A stretch of 30,926 nucleotides of DNA, taken from positions 1-30,926 of IMG/VR virus record IMGVR_UViG_3300043411_000732, one strand, 5' to 3'. The notes beneath the pieces are model-generated. The model searched no databases. It was not told the origin of the DNA and saw only the letters and a program-made list of their open reading frames with translations. Source of the stretch: a virus. Below are positions 1 through 18,276 of this stretch, in pieces (within the stretch, counting starts at the first letter, position 1; every line of letters begins with the position of its first letter). Position numbers and translations under genes: made by a program.

Positions 1-852
1 GAGGAGGCTATACTGGTAGCTAGTGACAAAGCTGTTGATGATCTTTTTGGTAATTCAGTATCTATCAATAGTGATGGCTCTAGAGTAGTTATAGGAGCTT
101 GGATTGCTGATCCTGGTGGTACTACTAATGCTGGTAAAGCCTATATCTTCGCTCGTAGTGGCAACTCATGGTCAGAGGAGGCTATACTGGTAGCTAGTGA
201 CAAGGATGTTAGTGATTGGTTTGGTTGTTCAGTATCTATCAATAGTGATGGCTCTAGAGTGGTTATAGGAGCTCGTTATGCTGATCCTGGTGGTACTAGT
301 GATGCTGGTAAAGCCTATATCTTCGCTCGTAGTGGCAACTCATGGTCAGAGGAGGCTATACTGGTAGCTAGTGACAAAGCTGCTAGTGATTATTTTGGTT
401 GTTCAGTATCTATCAATAGTGATGGCTCTAGAGTAGTTATAGGAGCTGATTATGCTAGTCCTGGTGGTACTACTAATGCTGGTAAAGCCTATATCTTCGC
501 TCGTAGTGGCAACTCATGGTCAGAGGAAGCTATACTGGTAGCTAGCGACAAAGCTAATAGTGATTATTTTGGTTATTCAGTATCTATCAATAGTGATGGC
601 TCTAGAGTGGTTATAGGAGCTGCTTATGCTGATCCTGGTGGTACTATTGATGCTGGTAAAGCCTACATCTTCGCTCGTAGTGGTAACTCATGGTCAGAGG
701 AGGCTATACTGGTAGCTAGTGACAAAGCTGTTGATGATCTTTTTGGTAATTCAGTATCTATCAATAGTGATGGCTCTAGAGTAGTTATAGGAGCTTGGAT
801 TGCTGATCCTGGTGGTACTACTAGTGCTGGTAAAGCCTATACACTCTCATAA
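1..852 (+). CDS. Tail fibre / adhesin with FG-GAP-like repeats, 3' end only
   Basis: The reading frame is open at the left edge, so the start lies outside the window; 283 codons and the stop are visible. The protein is almost entirely five copies of a 58-residue unit. Each unit carries FGxSVSINSDG, then SRVVIGA, a variable patch, GKAYIFARSG and NSWSEEAILVASD. This pattern is that of FG-GAP-type beta-propeller repeats (as in the Pfam FG-GAP_2 family), which occur in surface adhesins and in phage receptor-binding or fibre proteins. The last unit stops just after GKAY with TLS. Variation is concentrated in two short places per unit, the residues before FG and those after VVIGA, as expected for exposed loops. 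It is followed by a strong terminator. A role in host-surface contact is inferred from the repeat family and the phage context; the N-terminal attachment domain is not visible. Confidence 0.8.
   Translation, partial: EEAILVASDKAVDDLFGNSVSINSDGSRVVIGAWIADPGGTTNAGKAYIFARSGNSWSEEAILVASDKDVSDWFGCSVSINSDGSRVVIGARYADPGGTSDAGKAYIFARSGNSWSEEAILVASDKAASDYFGCSVSINSDGSRVVIGADYASPGGTTNAGKAYIFARSGNSWSEEAILVASDKANSDYFGYSVSINSDGSRVVIGAAYADPGGTIDAGKAYIFARSGNSWSEEAILVASDKAVDDLFGNSVSINSDGSRVVIGAWIADPGGTTSAGKAYTLS
1..852 (+). repeat. Five tandem 174-bp coding repeats
   Basis: Units begin at 1, 175, 349, 523 and 697, each exactly 174 bp (58 codons); the last is cut short by the stop. Sequence between units is nearly identical except at two short patches. 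The first 144 bp of unit 1 (1-144) and unit 5 (697-840) differ at a single base, much closer than adjacent units, which suggests duplication of a four-unit block or gene conversion. Confidence 0.95.
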
Positions 853-2414: not shown

Positions 2415-2531
2415 TTGTATACTTTATCAGCAGAAGAAATAAGTAGAATGAAAGAGACTACTTCGGCTATCAATAGTAGTTTAGCATCTATACCTACTTC
2501 TCCTATTATTATAGATAAAATGCCTCAATAG
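2415..2531 (+). CDS. Possible 38-aa protein starting at TTG
   Basis: A near-perfect AAGGAGGT lies 5 bp before a TTG that opens a 38-codon frame (LSAEEISRMKETTSAINSS and onward, ending DKMPQ). A GTG three bases earlier is also in frame. An ATG at 2410, in another frame, would give only a nine-codon peptide. The last ten bases overlap the start of the intron-bearing tRNA. No function is recognised. Confidence 0.3.
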   Translation: MYTLSAEEISRMKETTSAINSSLASIPTSPIIIDKMPQ

Positions 2532-2832
2532 CTTAGCGTTCTAAAGCAATCGACTCATGATATTTGCATAATTGTGCACTAGGGTACGAAAGTTCCTATG
2601 TGAATCCTGTCAAAGTCGGTGAACCCTCTGGCCTTCAAGCCGTGGCAACGCCGAGCGAAGCCTTCTGTACCTAGAAGGAACGTGTAGAGACTTAACGGCA
2701 GGGACCTAATACTTACCACAAGTGAGTTATGGTCAAGACAAAGTCCAGACTAGCAAACAGAGTAATCTGGTAGCGAAAGCTATAGCGGTATGAATCGATA
2801 GATCGTTGGTTAGAATCCAACTTGAGGCACCA
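2522..2832 (+). tRNA. tRNA(CAU), probably tRNA-Ile2, interrupted by a group I intron
   Basis: The exons are 2522-2558 and 2793-2832. Joined, they give a perfect cloverleaf. The acceptor is GCCTCAA/TTGAGGC, followed by T8 A9. The D-stem is GCTT/AAGC. The anticodon stem is ATCGA/TCGAT with loop CTCATAA. The T-arm is GTTGG/CCAAC with loop TTAGAAT, then A73 and an encoded CCA. The intron lies directly 3' of the CAU anticodon (between 36 and 37); the 5' exon ends in T and the intron in G, as group I introns require. The anticodon arm CGACTCATAATCG is that of bacterial tRNA-Ile2, which reads AUA after lysidine modification. AUA is abundant in this window. Elongator tRNA-Met is the alternative. Confidence 0.9.
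2559..2792 (+). ncRNA. Group I self-splicing intron without an ORF
   Basis: The 234-nt intron has a recognisable catalytic core. P3 pairs CCTGTC (2606-2611) with GGCAGG (2697-2702). P7 pairs GACTT (2689-2693) with AAGTC (2741-2745). The R-like element GACTTAACGGCA and the S-like element AAGACAAAGTC match the conserved group I signatures. Other helices include CCTTCT/AGAAGG (2661-2678) and a 3' hairpin TAGC-GAAA-GCTA (2771-2782) with a GNRA tetraloop. Size and site resemble the compact tRNA-anticodon introns of bacteria, such as the one in Azoarcus tRNA-Ile(CAU). P1 and the exact subgroup could not be assigned by eye. Confidence 0.88.
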
Positions 2833-2853: not shown

Positions 2854-3435
2854 ATGGCCAAGAAAGAAGTAAGAATAGTAAATGGCTATAGGATGATCTA
2901 TATGCCAGAACATCATGAAGCAGTAAGAAGTGGTTCAATGGAAGGTTATGTTTATGAACATAGATTAATTGCAGAACAATTTATGGGTCGTAAACTTACT
3001 GATGATGAAGATGTTCATCATCTTAATGGGGATAGATCCAATAATCTTCCTAGAAATCTACTAGTTTTAGAAACTGGTCAACATATGAAATTACATACAT
3101 GGTTACAACAACATGTGATTATTCCTATAGATGGTTCTAAAGTTGATCGAGAAAAAGAAAGAAAATATTGTAAATGCGGTATACAAATAGAAAATGATGC
3201 AAATTATTGCTCTCCTAATTGTGCGTCACTAGATAAAAGAATTATACCTCCAGTAACTAAAGAAGAACTTTCTAAACAGGTTTGGTCTAAACCTACATCA
3301 GAACTAGCTAAAGATTATAATGTATCTGATGTAGCTATAGCTAAACTTTGTAAAAAGCTGGGTGTGGATAAACCGCCTAGAGGTTATTGGAGATTAGTTG
3401 AAACAGGAAATGTTTGTCCTATTCCTCAAGATTAA
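2854..3435 (+). CDS. Free-standing HNH homing endonuclease
   Basis: The 193-residue product has an HNH_3-type nuclease core. EHR at 35-37 is followed by VHHLNGD with His55 and His56, and the NN..RN element at 63-68. A zinc-knuckle-like segment follows (Cys106, Cys108, Cys119, Cys123). The C-terminal helix-turn-helix-like region (about 146-170) ends in KPPRGYW, a tail common in phage HNH enzymes. The start has AAGGACATTTT before ATG. It lies 21 bp after the intron-bearing tRNA and just before a repeated tRNA 3' half, so it is outside the intron but may mobilise it or itself. Its cut site cannot be read from the sequence. Confidence 0.9.
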   Translation: MAKKEVRIVNGYRMIYMPEHHEAVRSGSMEGYVYEHRLIAEQFMGRKLTDDEDVHHLNGDRSNNLPRNLLVLETGQHMKLHTWLQQHVIIPIDGSKVDREKERKYCKCGIQIENDANYCSPNCASLDKRIIPPVTKEELSKQVWSKPTSELAKDYNVSDVAIAKLCKKLGVDKPPRGYWRLVETGNVCPIPQD

Positions 3436-10868: not shown

Positions 10869-12545
10869 ATGCCTAATAATCAAGTTAGCCCAGTTTCTGG
10901 CATTGATGGTAAGATACCTGTATATGATCCAGAAGGTTCATGGCGCATATGGAGTTTAGATGAAATATGGTCAGGACCTACTGGACCTGGTGAAGATAGA
11001 TTTGTTCCTAAGGAACTAGATTATGTAATAGATCCGCCTACTTATACAACTTATATAGTCGATCATCTAGATCCTATTTCTTTGACACCAACTTTAAGAG
11101 AGATTAGACCTTCATATTTATCTGGTACTTTTAGTGATATCGATATTTTATTTGGTGTTGGCCCAGGTACACAAGCTGATACTTATAGAATCTATATAGA
11201 TAAATCAGTTACACCTTTTAATCTAGCAGTTGATAATAGACTTAAAATAGCGGGTAGTATGTGTAGCTATTGTAAGATCTTTAAGGGTGGTGATTTAACT
11301 AATGCTGGTAATGTAGTATCTATGGTATATGATAATAATGGTAACTTCGTTTCTAACAATGTCCCATTAGAAATAGTAGCTATTGATAATCATACTAATT
11401 ACTTTATTAAAACTGTAGCTGCTTGTAAGACTACTTTTGATTTACTTGACGGAGAAGTAGTTACAGCAGTTATGTATGATAATGCTGGACATGTGATTTC
11501 TAAGCGCCAGTTACTAGTAGAGAATACTAGTTTCATTAGATCTCTTAATGTTAGCACTAAGTATATTACTCATATATCACTTAAATCACCATTTATACCA
11601 TTAACTAATGATCATCTAATAGAATTCCCTCTCAATGTGCCTGTCAATGCTTTAAATATGGTTGGTGTTGTACATTATAACGATGGTAGTACTTTAGAAC
11701 TACCTGTTGATGGCACTAGATTTAAGATGTTAGGTATTGATCAATATCTAAGTGCTATTGAGGGACAAGACATAGATCTAGTACTTGCATATGCTTTAGC
11801 ACCTAATGAAGTATCATACGGTAATAACATGATACCTGGCTATATAACCGAAAGTTATGTACTTCGTACTGTTAATCCTAATTTTAGCTATAGTGTCAAA
11901 CTTTTCTGCTATCCTGAATGGGTTAATGATACCTATGGTTATAAGCTCAATTGGTTCTTATTAAATCTAGATCGCAATGTAATGTTTGAAGTTACTAACC
12001 ATATACAATTTAATCCAGCCACTGGAACATTTGATCCATTAGGTTATGGTGTAACTCAACGTAAATCAGTTGCAGTTAATCTAAAGGCTGTGTCACCTAT
12101 CTTTGAAGAGTTTTTACATACTCAGTTAGTAGACATTAGTTTATATGCTAGCGCTCCAACTGTACTAGGTACAGCATGGACAGTAGCACATGAGGCTAAT
12201 GGTTCTAGACCAGCTTATGGTGTTAATATACTAGCTAAGAAGAAATCTACTTATGTATTAAATATTGATGCTGGCATTAATAACTATAATGATTGGCTTG
12301 AGCATGTTTATAAGCGTACTTATCCTTTAATCAATAGTATCACTGAAATACAGCCTCCTAATCCTACTCATGTTCAGGTAAGATATGGATTAGAAACTAT
12401 AGAAATTCCAGTAGCTAACTGGAATCAAGATATAACCTTTACTACTGCTCTTGCTAATTATGGAAGTGTCTTTATGACCTTTATAAGACGCATAGGACCA
12501 GAAATAAAGTATCTGGCAGTTGCTTCTATGTTTATTAAGGAATAA
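10869..12545 (+). CDS. Virion/baseplate-like structural protein, 558 aa
   Basis: AAGGAGTTTATAG precedes the ATG, 11 bp after the previous stop. The N-terminal part contains WSGPTGPGED followed by a run of short strand-like segments; the rest is beta-rich with no enzymatic motif. It is co-transcribed with the 857-aa protein and likely works with it in the baseplate or its appendages. The final segment (FMTFIRRIGPEIKYLAVA) is hydrophobic but too interrupted to be a clear membrane helix. The family is not recognised with certainty. Confidence 0.7.
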   Translation: MPNNQVSPVSGIDGKIPVYDPEGSWRIWSLDEIWSGPTGPGEDRFVPKELDYVIDPPTYTTYIVDHLDPISLTPTLREIRPSYLSGTFSDIDILFGVGPGTQADTYRIYIDKSVTPFNLAVDNRLKIAGSMCSYCKIFKGGDLTNAGNVVSMVYDNNGNFVSNNVPLEIVAIDNHTNYFIKTVAACKTTFDLLDGEVVTAVMYDNAGHVISKRQLLVENTSFIRSLNVSTKYITHISLKSPFIPLTNDHLIEFPLNVPVNALNMVGVVHYNDGSTLELPVDGTRFKMLGIDQYLSAIEGQDIDLVLAYALAPNEVSYGNNMIPGYITESYVLRTVNPNFSYSVKLFCYPEWVNDTYGYKLNWFLLNLDRNVMFEVTNHIQFNPATGTFDPLGYGVTQRKSVAVNLKAVSPIFEEFLHTQLVDISLYASAPTVLGTAWTVAHEANGSRPAYGVNILAKKKSTYVLNIDAGINNYNDWLEHVYKRTYPLINSITEIQPPNPTHVQVRYGLETIEIPVANWNQDITFTTALANYGSVFMTFIRRIGPEIKYLAVASMFIKE

Positions 12546-12558
12546 TCGCGCTATGGGG

Positions 12559-12586
12559 CTATAGTGGGCTTATAAACCCACTATAG
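12559..12586 (+). terminator. Hairpin before the 64-aa / reductase pair
   Basis: CTATAGTGGG (12559-12568) pairs with CCCACTATAG (12577-12586). There is only a short T content after it, so read-through into the next gene is possible. Confidence 0.65.
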
Positions 12587-12604
12587 TATCATTAAGGAAC
12601 TCAT

Positions 12605-12799
12605 ATGTTAAAATATCACATCATTAATACACAAGGAACCAAAAATGCTAGCTCACTCCCAATAGGTAAAGCTAAGAATATTAAGCCTAGCTATACTGAT
12701 TATGGAGAAGCTAAAAAGGATTTAGATGAGCTTAATAAGTATAGTAATTTAAAATTCATGATAAGCTATATAGATCCAGATAGATTTAGAAAGGATTAA
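12605..12799 (+). CDS. Unknown 64-aa protein coupled to the reductase gene
   Basis: TAAGGAACTCAT precedes the ATG. The product is basic and soluble (INTQGTKNASSLPIGKAKNI early, then YGEAKKDLDELNKYSNLKF, which should be helical). It ends three bases before the reductase start, so translation of the two is probably coupled. No family is recognised. A partner or regulatory role for the reductase can only be guessed from the spacing. Confidence 0.65.
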   Translation: MLKYHIINTQGTKNASSLPIGKAKNIKPSYTDYGEAKKDLDELNKYSNLKFMISYIDPDRFRKD

Positions 12800-12802
12800 G
12801 AA

Positions 12803-13543
12803 GTGCGTAGAACAGTATTAGTAACAGGTGGTATGGGAGGTTTAGGTACGGCTATATCAAGACAGTTCGTATCAGCTGGTCATCGAGTCATAGTTGGTTA
12901 TATGTCAGCTAATGATGATAAAGATGCTTGGTGTGCTAAAGCTGTTGAGGATGGTTATGATAGCTTTCTGCCACTAAACATGGATGTTTCAGATTATGAT
13001 GAAGTGACCAAAGCTTTAGATAAGATTAAGGAAGAAGTTGGTACTATAGATATTTTGATTAATAATGCTGGTATTACTAGAGATAAGTTCTTCACTAAAC
13101 TAGATGTCAATAAATGGTCAGCAGTAATTAATACTAATCTTAATAGCTTATATAATGTCACTAGTCAAGTAGTTCCTGGAATGGTTGAAAAGGGATATGG
13201 TAGAATCATCAATATCTCATCTGTTAATGGAATACGTGGCCAAGCTGGTCAGACTAACTACTCAGCAGCAAAAGCTGGTGTATTAGGTTTTACTAAGGCT
13301 TTAGCACTTGAGTTAGCAGATAAAGGTATCACCGTTAATGCAATTGCTCCTGGATATATTGGGACTAACATGGTTAAGGCTATTAAAAAGGAGATACTAG
13401 ATGGAATTGTCAGCAGTATTCCCATGGGTCGTTTAGGCACCCCAGAAGAGATCGCTGGTTTATGTGGATACCTAAGTAGTGATTTAGCTGGTTATATAAC
13501 CGGTGCTACTATAGATATTAATGGCGGTCTATACACACGTTAA
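12803..13543 (+). CDS. phaB-like: SDR oxidoreductase, acetoacetyl-CoA reductase (PhaB) type
   Basis: The 246-residue product is a classical short-chain dehydrogenase. It has the nucleotide site TGGMGGLG at 8-15, NNAG at 87-90, and a catalytic set Ser140, Tyr153 and Lys157 in YSAAK. The APGYIGTNMVKAI block is at 182-194 and the C-terminus is INGGLYTR. The GGMGG form of the nucleotide motif, the NNAGITRD and ISSVNG blocks, Gln147/Gln150 and the total length all match PhaB of polyhydroxybutyrate makers (from memory, including residue numbers). FabG-type ketoacyl-ACP reductases are the main alternative. PhaB reduces acetoacetyl-CoA to (R)-3-hydroxybutyryl-CoA with NADPH. GTG start after AAGGA. 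Codon use matches the phage, not a recent host import. Confidence 0.85.
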   Translation: MRRTVLVTGGMGGLGTAISRQFVSAGHRVIVGYMSANDDKDAWCAKAVEDGYDSFLPLNMDVSDYDEVTKALDKIKEEVGTIDILINNAGITRDKFFTKLDVNKWSAVINTNLNSLYNVTSQVVPGMVEKGYGRIINISSVNGIRGQAGQTNYSAAKAGVLGFTKALALELADKGITVNAIAPGYIGTNMVKAIKKEILDGIVSSIPMGRLGTPEEIAGLCGYLSSDLAGYITGATIDINGGLYTR

Positions 13544-13545
13544 AT

Positions 13546-13591
13546 GTTCGATACTACTAGTAGCCTATCAGGGCTACTAGTAGTATCGAAC
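13546..13591 (+). terminator. Terminator after the reductase gene
   Basis: A perfect 20-bp stem (13546-13565 with 13572-13591) with a six-base loop begins 3 bp after the reductase stop. Few T follow. Confidence 0.8.
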
Positions 13592-13683: not shown

Positions 13684-13878
13684 ATGATTATCGTGCGTAT
13701 CAGAACCTCTATAACATGTTTTGAAGTTGCAGTTAATGACTCAAACATTGTGGAATTCGCTAAAGTGCTAGAGGATTCCAGTAATGTAGGGATCTTTCAG
13801 GTTTTTGTTAGTGGGATTCAAATGCCTAAAGAAGCCTATGGGTGTAATACTATGACTAAATGGTTCCATGGAGACTAA
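13684..13878 (+). CDS. Unknown 64-aa protein
   Basis: AAGGAGTTACT precedes the ATG. The product is soluble, with strand-like segments (MIIVRIRTSITCFEVAV, VGIFQVFVSGI) that would suit a small alpha-beta fold. It ends one base before the start of the next gene, so the two are translationally coupled and the coupling sequence GGAG lies inside this gene. No family is recognised. Confidence 0.65.
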   Translation: MIIVRIRTSITCFEVAVNDSNIVEFAKVLEDSSNVGIFQVFVSGIQMPKEAYGCNTMTKWFHGD

Positions 13879-13879
13879 A

Positions 13880-14548
13880 ATGTTTAAAATTTTTAAATTT
13901 CTTAATAATAGCATCTTGGATACTTCAGTAGAACATATCGCTGTCTTTAATCCATGTGATGTTAAATCTATCGCTATGGCACTTTATGAGTTTTATAATG
14001 GTCGAAAGTGCTATAGTATAACTAGTGATGTTAGTTTTATCCTTAATGGCAACTATAAGGTTAAGTATCTTGGTTTCAGTATGGATCTTATAGATGCTAA
14101 GGTGGTTGAACGAAAAGGCAGTGTTAGTTATTCAATTAGCACTGAGGATGTATCTATGCTAGATATAGCTGACAAAGATGTTGCTCGAGCTATCTACAAT
14201 CTTTGGCACTTCAATGATAAGAATGCTAGTAAAGAAATCCTTATGTTTGTTTATTGCAATATTGACAACATTATGGATTATATTTCTGGTTATTCTGAAT
14301 TAGAGTTAAAGGATCCTGTTTATAGTGATTCAAAGGATTATTTAGCTTGTGCTGAAGAAGTTAAGAAACGGCTTAAGAATAACTTTGAGAAGTTATACGA
14401 TGGTGAGCTAGTAGATAGTATGCGATATGGTATTTTACGTGGTGAGAATAATAAAGAGAAAATCATAGCTGCCAGGTTAGTTCAAATGGCTGGCTATAAA
14501 TTAATTCACCAACAAGCTACTTCCATTGGTTTAATTAGTTGTAGTTAA
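13880..14548 (+). CDS. Unknown 222-aa protein
   Basis: I place the start at the ATG at 13880, because GGAG lies 6 bp before it. An in-frame ATG at 13868 inside the previous gene has no ribosome binding site. The product begins with a hydrophobic/basic stretch (MFKIFKFLNNSILD) and is otherwise soluble and mixed helix-strand, with a Lys- and Glu-rich second half. It is the last gene before a terminator shared with the converging terminase. No motif or family is recognised. Confidence 0.65.
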   Translation: MFKIFKFLNNSILDTSVEHIAVFNPCDVKSIAMALYEFYNGRKCYSITSDVSFILNGNYKVKYLGFSMDLIDAKVVERKGSVSYSISTEDVSMLDIADKDVARAIYNLWHFNDKNASKEILMFVYCNIDNIMDYISGYSELELKDPVYSDSKDYLACAEEVKKRLKNNFEKLYDGELVDSMRYGILRGENNKEKIIAARLVQMAGYKLIHQQATSIGLISCS

Positions 14549-14556
14549 ATATACCT

Positions 14557-14583
14557 ACCACAGGCCCTCAAAAGGCCTGTGGT
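14557..14583. terminator. Bidirectional terminator between converging genes
   Basis: ACCACAGGCC (14557-14566) pairs with GGCCTGTGGT (14574-14583). It lies between the 3' ends of the 13880 gene (plus) and the terminase (minus), so it can serve both. Confidence 0.75.
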
Positions 14584-14589
14584 GAGGTT

Positions 14590-16734
14590 TTAATAGCCAT
14601 AATGTTTAAATGTACTACTTATCTTCCTGTTTATTTTTTTAGACTCTTTAAGAGACTCTATAAGCTTATCTATACTATGTATAGCTTCATCGTTATTAAG
14701 TTCAGCTACTAGCTTTCTAAGTCTAGCTTCATACTTATAGATTATATAATCGTTTTGCTCTTTTTGTATAGACTCTATAAGGCTTTCTATTTCTGCTTGT
14801 ATAGATTGTTGCCTAATAGCCTCATAGTTAGCTTCAGAACTTTTAGTAGCTTGAACTGTTTCATTTAGAGATAAGATATCCTTAGCATTGATATTATAAT
14901 AATAAAGGTTCTTACCTTGAGATAGTAACCAGAATCCTAATACCCAGCTGATACATAAGTCATCTTTTTCACCAGCGCTATGATCTACTCTACCATTTCT
15001 AATAGTTAAACCTAATAGTTGATCTATGACTTTTTTATCTCTTACTAGATCAGCTGTAGTTTTAGTAGCATTTGTTAGAGTAGTACTATATAGCTCACTA
15101 CGACTAGTTAGACCAGCCCCACTAGTAGCAAAGCCAAAGGTAGCTTTATATTTAATAATTAGATCATTAGCATTATAGACATAACGTTTATCAACTTCAG
15201 TAAAGCGTTCTGGTTTCTCATCCTTCTCTTGAACTACTTTATTATATATACGCTTAAATGGGTTTATATTATTCTCTACTAGTATAAGTAGCAATAGATC
15301 TATAATAGTAGCACCACTTGACCTACGTTCTATAATAAGAGTGATTGTATTATACTTAATAAGCCAACTAGCTAACCATTTAGTATAGAGTATTAGATTA
15401 GTTTCATTAATGTTAGCTGCAGCTATTATAGCACCAGTCTTTATATCTCTTAAAGTCATGGCTATATCATCGTGCCCTATGGCATCGCTAGTATCCACAC
15501 TTAAAACATAGCTAGAAGTGTTTAAACGCTGTTCTATGGAGTTTAAAGGTATGTACCACCTAACTACATAGTTATAAGGCTTACAGATCTCTATAGCCGG
15601 ATCTGGTACCTCTGAGTTACGTATACGTTCAGCTATCTCAACTGAAAATGGAGAAGTTTGACTACCACTAGTCCATATATTGTAATAATCACGTTCAGCA
15701 TCTTCACCTCTAGAACCAGTGATCTCTAATTGTTCTTTAAGCCATGCATCCGTATAACCTAATTGTCTATGACTAAAAGTACAATTAACTCTTAATTCAC
15801 CACTAGGGCTATTTAATCGAATAGTTTCTTCTAGTTCTTTCTCATCTTTACAATCAAAGAACTTCTCAGACCATATAGCTGAATTAGAAAGCATTTCATA
15901 AGCATACTTACCATCTACGTCATCTTTCTTACCAGCAGTAGTAGTAAATAGATTACAATAAGGTTCTCCTTTAGCAGCTGCTATATTTCTAGCAGCTGTA
16001 GTAGCTGGCAAAGCAGCTGGTAAAGTAATAGCTATATTATAGATAAATGCTTTTTCATCAATATGGAAAATAGGGGCAGTTAGACCACGTCCTACATTAA
16101 GAGCAGCTTTAGGAGATTTACTAGGTAATAACCCTTTATATCTATTACCTAATTTCTTGATAGTAATCTCTTCAGTATTAGCTACATCTTTCTTAGTACG
16201 TTGTTTAAGGTAAAATGGAAGCTCATCTATAATATCTTTAAGACGACTAAGTGACCTAGATCTTAGAGTTTCATCTTTAGTAAGCATTGCTATATAAGTA
16301 TCTGTAGACGCTATATTAAGGCAATAAGCCATAAGTATATCTACAGAGAAAGATTTACCAGTTTGACGTGGCTGTATTAGGAATGTAGTAATGTGATTCA
16401 TAAATAACCAATATAAGGCTATATTACCTCTATTGGCTCTAAATGGTAATCTATCTATACCACTACCTGGAACACGAGCTATTTCTCTAGCATGATACCA
16501 AATATTTTGTTTAGCTTCTAAAGCTATAGCCATCATGGTTTCTATATCTAAATTAGGATCAAAAGGATCTATGCCTTGTAGATCTGGATTTAAAAGAGAT
16601 AGAGGAAAAGCGTGATTCTTTACTCCCATATCTCTTAACAATGCACTATAACGTATAAATGAAGTATTAGTAGTCTTAGTATCTATAATAGCACCAGGAT
16701 ATAGATCCCAATCTTTTTCAAAAAGTATAGCCAT
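14590..16734 (-). CDS. terL: Terminase large subunit (DNA packaging motor)
   Basis: The 714-aa product has both terminase domains. The ATPase has Walker A QPRQTGKS at 121-128, Walker B IFHIDE at 222-227 with the catalytic acid at its end, and a coupling-type segment LFTTTAG near 262-268. The C-terminal RNase H-like nuclease shows its acidic residues in VLSVDTSDAIG (Asp414), LIIERRSSG (Glu469) and EKDDLCISW (Asp591/592). It cuts concatemeric DNA and pumps it through the portal into the capsid. The start has AAGGAG before ATCT-ATG. The extra C-terminal region after about 600 is Lys/Glu-rich and probably helical. No small terminase is recognised in the window. Confidence 0.93.
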   Translation of the reverse strand: MAILFEKDWDLYPGAIIDTKTTNTSFIRYSALLRDMGVKNHAFPLSLLNPDLQGIDPFDPNLDIETMMAIALEAKQNIWYHAREIARVPGSGIDRLPFRANRGNIALYWLFMNHITTFLIQPRQTGKSFSVDILMAYCLNIASTDTYIAMLTKDETLRSRSLSRLKDIIDELPFYLKQRTKKDVANTEEITIKKLGNRYKGLLPSKSPKAALNVGRGLTAPIFHIDEKAFIYNIAITLPAALPATTAARNIAAAKGEPYCNLFTTTAGKKDDVDGKYAYEMLSNSAIWSEKFFDCKDEKELEETIRLNSPSGELRVNCTFSHRQLGYTDAWLKEQLEITGSRGEDAERDYYNIWTSGSQTSPFSVEIAERIRNSEVPDPAIEICKPYNYVVRWYIPLNSIEQRLNTSSYVLSVDTSDAIGHDDIAMTLRDIKTGAIIAAANINETNLILYTKWLASWLIKYNTITLIIERRSSGATIIDLLLLILVENNINPFKRIYNKVVQEKDEKPERFTEVDKRYVYNANDLIIKYKATFGFATSGAGLTSRSELYSTTLTNATKTTADLVRDKKVIDQLLGLTIRNGRVDHSAGEKDDLCISWVLGFWLLSQGKNLYYYNINAKDILSLNETVQATKSSEANYEAIRQQSIQAEIESLIESIQKEQNDYIIYKYEARLRKLVAELNNDEAIHSIDKLIESLKESKKINRKISSTFKHYGY

Positions 16735-16802: not shown

Positions 16803-16864
16803 TTTATTAAAAAAAAATGGGTAATATATACTATATAAGAAGCATGGACAAGAGTGCCTGTGCA
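16803..16864 (+). promoter_or_regulatory. Cargo promoter, copy 2
   Basis: TATACT (16827-16832) within TATATACTATATAAG, with TTTATT 18 bp upstream as a possible -35. From 16811 to 16864 it matches 3612-3665 with one mismatch in 54 bp. A TATAAT-like box for the divergent terminase is also visible on the minus strand near 16777-16782. Confidence 0.7.
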
Positions 16865-16888
16865 TAGACAGCGTGGATAGGAGGTAAT

Positions 16889-17488
16889 ATGATTAAAATC
16901 CACGAAGGAATATCCCTCGACCTGTGGACGCTCGAGGAGAGCATCGCGATGCATACCACGATGCTCGGCGGCGATAGCGTCGCGGCGCTTAAAAGCGTTC
17001 ACGACGCTATTATTGTTCGAGGCAGCGCCTTCGCGTCGTTGATCGGCGAGGAGCATGTGGCGCAGTATGCCGCATTGTTGCCTAAGAAAGCATCCCTGTT
17101 AAGGCCAGGGATGGTCATCTCGGTCTGCCAGGACGCCCTGAACGCCCTGGCGGCGGATGAAGCAGACGCTATCATCGCCCACGAGGAAGGCCACATCCTC
17201 AGTGGGCATGTGCTGTACGCTCACGAACTTGGACTCACAGACGTGGGCGTCGGAGCTCCGGTAGTGGTTAACACTGCCGTCGAGTTGGCAGCCGACGCCT
17301 ACGCGGCCAAGCGCGTGGGCAAAGGCGCTATGCGCCGGGCACTGCTCGCCATAATTCGGTGGCAAGTAGATACAATTTTCGGGCTATATCGTCGCCTGGG
17401 CAAAAAGCCCAAAGCTACCGCCGAAGAGGTGGTGGCTGCTATCGTGGCCGACGATATCATCCAAGCTCGTCTGGTTGCCCTCGAATGA
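16889..17488 (+). CDS. GC-rich cargo gene: HEXXH zinc metallopeptidase (M48-like)
   Basis: The 199-residue product contains IIAHEEGHILSGH, with HEXXH at 98-102 (His98, Glu99, His102). Thirty residues later comes ELAADAYAAK at 132-141. HExxH followed by ExxAD is the arrangement of M48 and related gluzincin peptidases, with Glu132 as third zinc ligand. Unlike membrane HtpX or Ste24 proteins it has no transmembrane segments, so it should be cytosolic. Its composition is foreign to the window: 40 of 60 bases at 17101-17160 are G or C. GGAGG lies 5 bp before the ATG. Promoter, gene and strong terminator form a self-contained moron-like cassette. Its target protein is unknown; host regulators or defence proteins are possible, but nothing in the sequence shows which. 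Confidence 0.8.
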   Translation: MIKIHEGISLDLWTLEESIAMHTTMLGGDSVAALKSVHDAIIVRGSAFASLIGEEHVAQYAALLPKKASLLRPGMVISVCQDALNALAADEADAIIAHEEGHILSGHVLYAHELGLTDVGVGAPVVVNTAVELAADAYAAKRVGKGAMRRALLAIIRWQVDTIFGLYRRLGKKPKATAEEVVAAIVADDIIQARLVALE

Positions 17489-17491
17489 ACC

Positions 17492-17532
17492 ACCACCCTA
17501 GGCCTGTAAAGCCTAGGGTGGTATTTTTTTTT
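17492..17532. terminator. Strong terminator after the metallopeptidase gene
   Basis: ACCACCCTAGGC (17492-17503) pairs perfectly with 17511-17522, followed by nine T at 17524-17532. Confidence 0.92.
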
Positions 17533-17541
17533 GTTAACAAA

Positions 17542-18195
17542 CTACCTCTGGAATCTACTTCCATATATTTTTTTCTTAAAGAAATCAGAGAAATCATCCC
17601 TCTGCTGATTCTCAACATCATCAATAGCATTAATAGTAGTGACACCTTCTCTATTACTAATATTCTTAGCTTTATCAGATATAACCTTATGTATAGTTGG
17701 TTTAAAGAAGTTATTGTGATGTATCTTAGTAATCTCAGTAATGTAGCTAGTAAGTACTGATTCTACTTCTTGATGACCAAAGTAATACTTGGCTCTACTA
17801 AAGACCTCTGTAGCTAATTTATCTAACTCTATTAAGTCACTAGTTGGTGCTTCTGCTAAGTTAACACCATACTCTAACATAATCTTCCAAGCTTCTAGAT
17901 AGTTCTGCATAATGATATATATATCCTTAATATCATTAGCCACACATAACCTAATGGTAGCACCTTCTTTAAAGTATCTTAGAATCTCTTTAACTGGTAT
18001 ACAAACATTAGTCATCTGGTTATGTATATCTTTATCTATTTCTTTAACATTAGATCTATAGACACCATATAGTGTCATCTCAGCTTGGGATAGAGTAGCT
18101 AGATATGGGACAGATACTTTAAATATATCATTCTCAAATCTCTGTTTAGCTCTATTTAGATTATCTATGGTACTAATCTTACTTGTATTATACAT
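17542..18195 (-). CDS. Unknown 217-aa helical protein
   Basis: The product is mostly helical and charged (FSRAKYYFGHQEVESVL, EITKIHHNNFF), without signal peptide, membrane segment or known motif; its C-terminus is basic (FFKKKIYGSRFQR). It converges on the metallopeptidase gene and is followed, on the minus strand, by the terminator region at 17492. A position between the terminase and other structural genes suggests a packaging or assembly function, but this is only contextual. Confidence 0.65.
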   Translation of the reverse strand: MYNTSKISTIDNLNRAKQRFENDIFKVSVPYLATLSQAEMTLYGVYRSNVKEIDKDIHNQMTNVCIPVKEILRYFKEGATIRLCVANDIKDIYIIMQNYLEAWKIMLEYGVNLAEAPTSDLIELDKLATEVFSRAKYYFGHQEVESVLTSYITEITKIHHNNFFKPTIHKVISDKAKNISNREGVTTINAIDDVENQQRDDFSDFFKKKIYGSRFQR

Positions 18196-18233
18196 AATAG
18201 CCCCCTAAAGTATTTAGATTAGGGAAAAGTTAA

Positions 18234-18263
18234 CTACTAGTAGCCAACATTGGCTACTAGTAG
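18234..18263. terminator. Hairpin between 18277 and 17542 genes
   Basis: CTACTAGTAGCC (18234-18245) pairs with GGCTACTAGTAG (18252-18263). A T-rich tail lies on the plus side. The stem shares the ACTAGTAG core with the terminator at 13546. Confidence 0.75.
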
Positions 18264-18276
18264 TATTTTGGTTTTT

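Follow-up and report, generated by a model that had tools for sequence, protein, structure and literature searches.

A PhaB-type acetoacetyl-CoA reductase gene at the virion gene/terL junction of a phiKZ-like jumbo phage

PhaB1 of C. necator (PDB 3vzp, 4n5m) serves in PHB synthesis and is encoded in the phaCAB operon. The reductase described here is 53% identical to it over 242 aligned residues and has the same catalytic and substrate residues, but it is phage-borne and stands outside such an operon. FabG of the E. coli type shares with the phage reductase the fold and the Ser-Tyr-Lys catalytic set, and differs from it in Asn at 147, Phe at 185, Arg/Lys at 131 and Arg at 174 and in forming a separate clade. 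Among viruses, a 2025 study of PHA-producing mixed cultures reported phbB among the transcribed phage metabolic genes (PMC12013262). These genes likewise encode an acetoacetyl-CoA reductase on phage contigs; the text of that study does not contain the word 'jumbo', and the comparison with our gene is one of description. Phage phbB as a kind is therefore already known, and the phiKZ-like carrier appears to be new within what was searched.

The phage and the insertion site

We analysed a viral contig of 30,926 bases (the window). It is part of the genome of a jumbo phage, a giant bacterial virus, of the phiKZ-like group. PHROG matches to tail sheath, virion proteins and the large terminase (terL), all of phiKZ type, a Pfam PhiKZ_VTX match marking a homologue of the phiKZ gp28 vertex protein, and synteny with Burkholderia phage FLC9 (LC667451) showed that phiKZ-type virion genes lie here in phiKZ-type order. 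FLC9 is the closest isolate, with 45% identity in the sheath and 40% in the 558-aa virion protein; since its genome is 322 kb long, the window covers about one tenth of the length expected for such a phage. The features are collected in Table 1.

Table 1. Coordinates of the insertion site and of other features in the window
Feature	Position	Strand	Remarks
FG-GAP repeat protein	259..852		near left contig end
tRNA-Met(CAU)-type gene	2522..2832	+	appears split in the anticodon loop
Group I intron core	2556..2760		Rfam RF00028
HNH homing-endonuclease-like ORF	2854..3435		downstream of split tRNA gene
558-aa virion structural protein, phrog_3430	10869..12545	+	left border of insertion site
Intergenic hairpin CTATAGTGGG-CTTATAAA-CCCACTATAG, then ribosome-binding site of 64-aa ORF	12546..12604	+	3' of 558-aa virion gene; sequence read directly
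64-aa ORF	12605..12799	+	ends 3 nt before reductase start
PhaB-type acetoacetyl-CoA reductase (SDR), 246 aa, GTG start	12803..13543	+	models, tree, residues
20-bp perfect hairpin, terminator-like	13546..13591	+	3' of reductase
Second two-gene cassette: 64-aa ORF (13684-13878) overlapping 226-aa ORF (13868-14548)	13684..14548	+	same junction
Terminator-like hairpin, readable both directions	14556..14584	.	between second cassette and convergent terL
Large terminase terL	14590..16734	-	right border of insertion site; PHROG match
199-aa ORF	16889..17488	+	just beyond terL; weak M48-peptidase match
Second occurrence of reductase-hairpin arms	18233..18264		between other phage genes

The 246-codon ORF is real, intact and phage-borne. 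The coordinates that the earlier note gave for it and for the 64-aa ORF are exact, and the location that it described inside a phage structural region agrees with the neighbours, which are virion and packaging genes (sheath, virion proteins, terL and the gp28 homologue). The tight coupling of the two ORFs, also claimed there, holds at 3 nt from stop to start, and translational coupling is probable from this arrangement. The 64-aa ORF has no relative in PHROG, Pfam, the phage collection or IMG/VR, and a structure search with its AF2 single-sequence model (pLDDT 74) returned no significant fold match. Each of the two cassettes is closed by a strong hairpin. The arm sequence ACTACTAGTAGCC of the hairpin after the reductase occurs again elsewhere in the phage (4 matches, with 0 expected by chance), and this recurrence ties the reductase cassette to the phage's own signals. 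The PHROG-assigned neighbours, the FLC9 synteny and the shared hairpin arms place this candidate auxiliary metabolic gene on a genuine phage genome.

FLC9 shares with the window the gene order sheath/331-aa/857-aa/558-aa/convergent terL. In FLC9 the 558-aa homologue is followed after 47 bp by terL, with no cargo between them and no SDR, whereas in the window 2.0 kb separate the two genes and hold two two-gene cassettes (64 aa + reductase; 64 aa + 226 aa), a precise insertion when set against FLC9. Among about 70 such junctions in IMG/VR, most were abutted within ~250 bp, and in eleven of them unrelated genes occupy 0.6-6 kb; hence the junction between the 558-aa gene and terL is a cargo insertion hotspot in phiKZ-like phages. 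At the sibling junctions neither the reductase nor any of the three small ORFs beside it has a relative, and an SDR profile that finds 13 of 14 controls gave 0 matches in 50 whole sibling records, many of which are fragments. The reductase gene is confined to a single phiKZ-like record among those examined.

The cargo-bearing junctions belong to records L084, L118-L121, L123, L125, L155, L174, L178 and L189. In L120, L121, L123, L125 and L174 the junction proteins are of ~250-320 aa and mutually alignable, and those of L120 and L121 carry repeats of the form REDGPAVEYxxGxKxW. A by-eye likeness of the 226-aa neighbour to this family was dropped: a profile comparison with the 226-aa protein left out of the profile gave a probability of 0.1%, and the match at 100% was circular, the protein having been included. 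Neither ORF of the second cassette matched a known family. Xanthomonas phage LucasX, likewise phiKZ-like, also has a metabolic gene as cargo in this neighbourhood: an annotated aldehyde dehydrogenase shortly past its terL (16825-18045 of that record, L083).

Two further features of the window were noted. The 199-aa ORF beyond terL has 58.5% GC and a GC3 of 0.67, against ~34% GC for the phage, and is probably a recent foreign gene; a search of 369 genomes from a single class found nothing closely related to it, and it gave no indication of the host. The tRNA-Met gene appears to be interrupted by a 234-nt group I intron (55.2 bits, above the gathering score). Few group I introns are known from phage tRNA genes, and a literature search of titles and abstracts gave no clear precedent.

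Enzyme class and cofactor loop

The reductase passed the curated acetoacetyl-CoA reductase model TIGR01829 (346.7 bits against a cut-off of 302.1, E 7e-104) and failed the FabG model TIGR01830 (277.9 against 297.75 bits). It stayed below the cut-off of the PhaB equivalog NF042966 (196 bits against 436), a model that covers a different PhaB group, since a proteobacterial PhaB linked to phaC (L087) scores just 189 bits. The best PDB matches were the Cupriavidus/Ralstonia PhaB and Burkholderia acetoacetyl-CoA reductases (~250-280 bits, E ~1e-82), with FabG chains at ~200 bits, and relatives at 52-57% identity are encoded beside phaC (L087) or carry the annotation phbB. In a maximum-likelihood tree of 73 proteins the reductase fell in the PhaB clade (support 100/99), nested in beta/gammaproteobacterial PhaB, with FabG as a separate group (100/99). 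A reduced tree repeated this placement. The earlier note had named placement within FabG as the outcome that would count against its PhaB assignment; an AU test rejected a clade of FabG plus the window protein (p = 0.0026).

The AF2 model (pLDDT 90) is nearest to PhaB crystal structures, the best chain being 3vzp (Z 37.7, 1.6 A, 53% identity). FabG chains reach Z ~36 and below, ~1.5-2 Z units under PhaB, a gap so small that the fold alone does not decide between the two. Residues were compared across 24 PhaB and 11 FabG proteins. The phage reductase keeps 49 of the 49 columns that are invariant in PhaB and has the PhaB letter at all six positions that separate PhaB from FabG. The TGGMGG motif stands at residues 8-13, and Ser140, Gln147, Gln150, Tyr153, Lys157, Gly184 and Tyr185 are kept with numbering identical to C. 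necator PhaB (alignment with PDB 4n5l), in agreement with what had been read from the sequence before. In FabG, Arg129 and Arg172 (E. coli numbers) are reported to dock ACP (PMC8007833); their equivalents in the phage reductase are Gly131 and Lys174, as in PhaB, so that the FabG docking pair is lacking.

These data weigh against the view that the protein is a FabG-type 3-oxoacyl-ACP reductase aiding fatty-acid or phospholipid synthesis in infection. Its score below the FabG equivalog cut-offs, the tree and AU test, and the PhaB-type diagnostic positions, with Gly in place of a basic ACP-docking residue, make this very unlikely, even though fold and chemistry are the same and FabG chains fall only slightly lower in the structural comparison. 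Two labels also point towards FabG: PHROG 3142 calls the phage relatives of the reductase 'FabG-like', and the best plasmid relative (L086) is annotated as a beta-ketoacyl-ACP reductase; L086 itself, however, reaches 410 bits with the acetoacetyl-CoA reductase model and only 288 bits, under the cut-off, with that for FabG. FabG identity was rejected by models, residues and tree, and assignment of the phage protein to the PhaB/PhbB-type acetoacetyl-CoA reductases, as previously proposed, is a solid prediction from its sequence.

The cofactor preference is less clear. Work on C. necator PhaB (PMC8904767) assigns part of its cofactor preference to residues 37-41, among which Arg40 touches the NADPH 2'-phosphate. 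The C. necator loop N37-S-P-R-R reads Ala-Asn-Asp-Asp-Lys in the phage reductase, with Arg40 replaced by Asp39 and Pro39 by Asp38; in addition, Thr173 of PhaB1 is Asp in the phage protein. An Asp at the place of Arg40 was seen in 0 of the 24 PhaB compared, which makes the use of NADPH, assumed in the earlier note, uncertain and the use of NADH possible. The loop is variable across PhaB and belongs to the less reliably modelled stretches of the protein (pLDDT ~70), and use of NADH is accordingly put forward as a hypothesis only.

Origin of the gene and other viral PhaB genes

The GC3 of the reductase gene is 0.23 and fits the phage. The suggestion that its AT-rich codon use implies long retention was not borne out: an Acinetobacter plasmid PhaB has a GC3 of 0.22, and the gene is in no sibling phage examined. 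Because the two values are equal in practice, codon use cannot tell long residence from an AT-rich donor. The sister of the reductase varied with sampling, being an Azospirillum plasmid gene in the 73-protein tree and an Acinetobacter plasmid phbB in a quicker tree, and with a sister group this unstable the donor cannot be fixed. The branch of the reductase is long, at 0.6-0.75 substitutions per site.

That the ORF is intact and has kept every invariant PhaB residue over such a branch, that it is flanked by conserved phage genes and that its phage-type hairpin is common to another phage locus all argue against passenger cargo, whether newly gained and of slight or no use to the phage, or bacterial DNA wrongly joined to the contig in assembly. 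We regard this as quite improbable, while noting that absence of the gene from the 50 sibling records, a site that accepts unrelated cargo and the GC3 shared with AT-rich Acinetobacter PhaB would all fit it.

In a direct search of IMG/VR, neither the reductase nor the 64-aa ORF had a near viral relative. Matches by tblastn in the phage collection mostly look like host DNA in 'phage' records and were not used as evidence of phage SDR genes. A profile scan of IMG/VR detected 60 SDR loci. Five of these, all AT-rich (L251-L255), group with PhaB, on the alphaproteobacterial side of the clade. They resemble the window gene in being viral, in belonging to PHROG 3142 and, for L254 and L255, in passing TIGR01829. 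They differ from it in their branch of PhaB and in their T4-like setting, and represent a separate acquisition: by family matches, the PhaB gene of L255 lies among genes for the sliding clamp, clamp loader, recombination nuclease subunits and late sigma factor, and that of L254 near a RegA-type translation repressor and an endolysin, all T4-type. In both L254 and L255 the PhaB gene is directly 3' of an IMP dehydrogenase/GMP reductase-like gene. Since the T4-like contigs carry PhaB of the alphaproteobacterial branch and the window a PhaB nested in the beta/gammaproteobacterial one, the phylogeny indicates at least two captures of PhaB, by viruses that are not related to each other.

Proposed role in infection

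We consider it reasonably probable that the phage took from a host an auxiliary metabolic gene for an (R)-specific PhaB/PhbB acetoacetyl-CoA reductase, carried as cargo at the virion gene/terL hotspot of a phiKZ-like jumbo phage and acting in infection on host acetoacetyl-CoA. The reductase would be made during infection and, through Ser140, Tyr153 and Lys157 and with NAD(P)H, would convert host acetoacetyl-CoA to (R)-3-hydroxybutyryl-CoA; the reverse reaction is also chemically possible. The thiolase PhaA and the polymerase PhaC of the host would complement the phage enzyme, and no phaA, phaC, phasin or PHA regulator gene was seen within the 31-kb window, about one tenth of such a genome. In a PHB-forming host, this would redirect carbon and reducing power between acetyl-CoA, reduced cofactor and PHB, into or out of the polymer, with plausible consequences for granules and carbon flow.

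The missing phaC in the fragment, together with the Asp residues in place of Arg40 and Pro39, would also suit a PhaB-type enzyme that serves the phage chiefly by balancing redox, with NADH or NADPH consumed, or regenerated in reverse from (R)-3-hydroxybutyryl-CoA, and not by forming polymer. The cofactor preference is not safely readable from a loop as variable and weakly modelled as this one, and we hold such a role to be unlikely. Of lower probability still is a more specific proposal, in which the phage recruited an NADH-preferring PhaB with an altered cofactor loop and a dedicated 64-aa partner, making PHB metabolism a redox or carbon valve in infection.

Many environmental bacteria store carbon in polymers, and how phages control this storage has received little study; the literature searched contained one report of transcribed phage PHA genes. 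With a clean PhaB gene whose capture site can be seen in a phiKZ-like genome, the question of whether phages tap or build PHB during infection can be put to a concrete gene.
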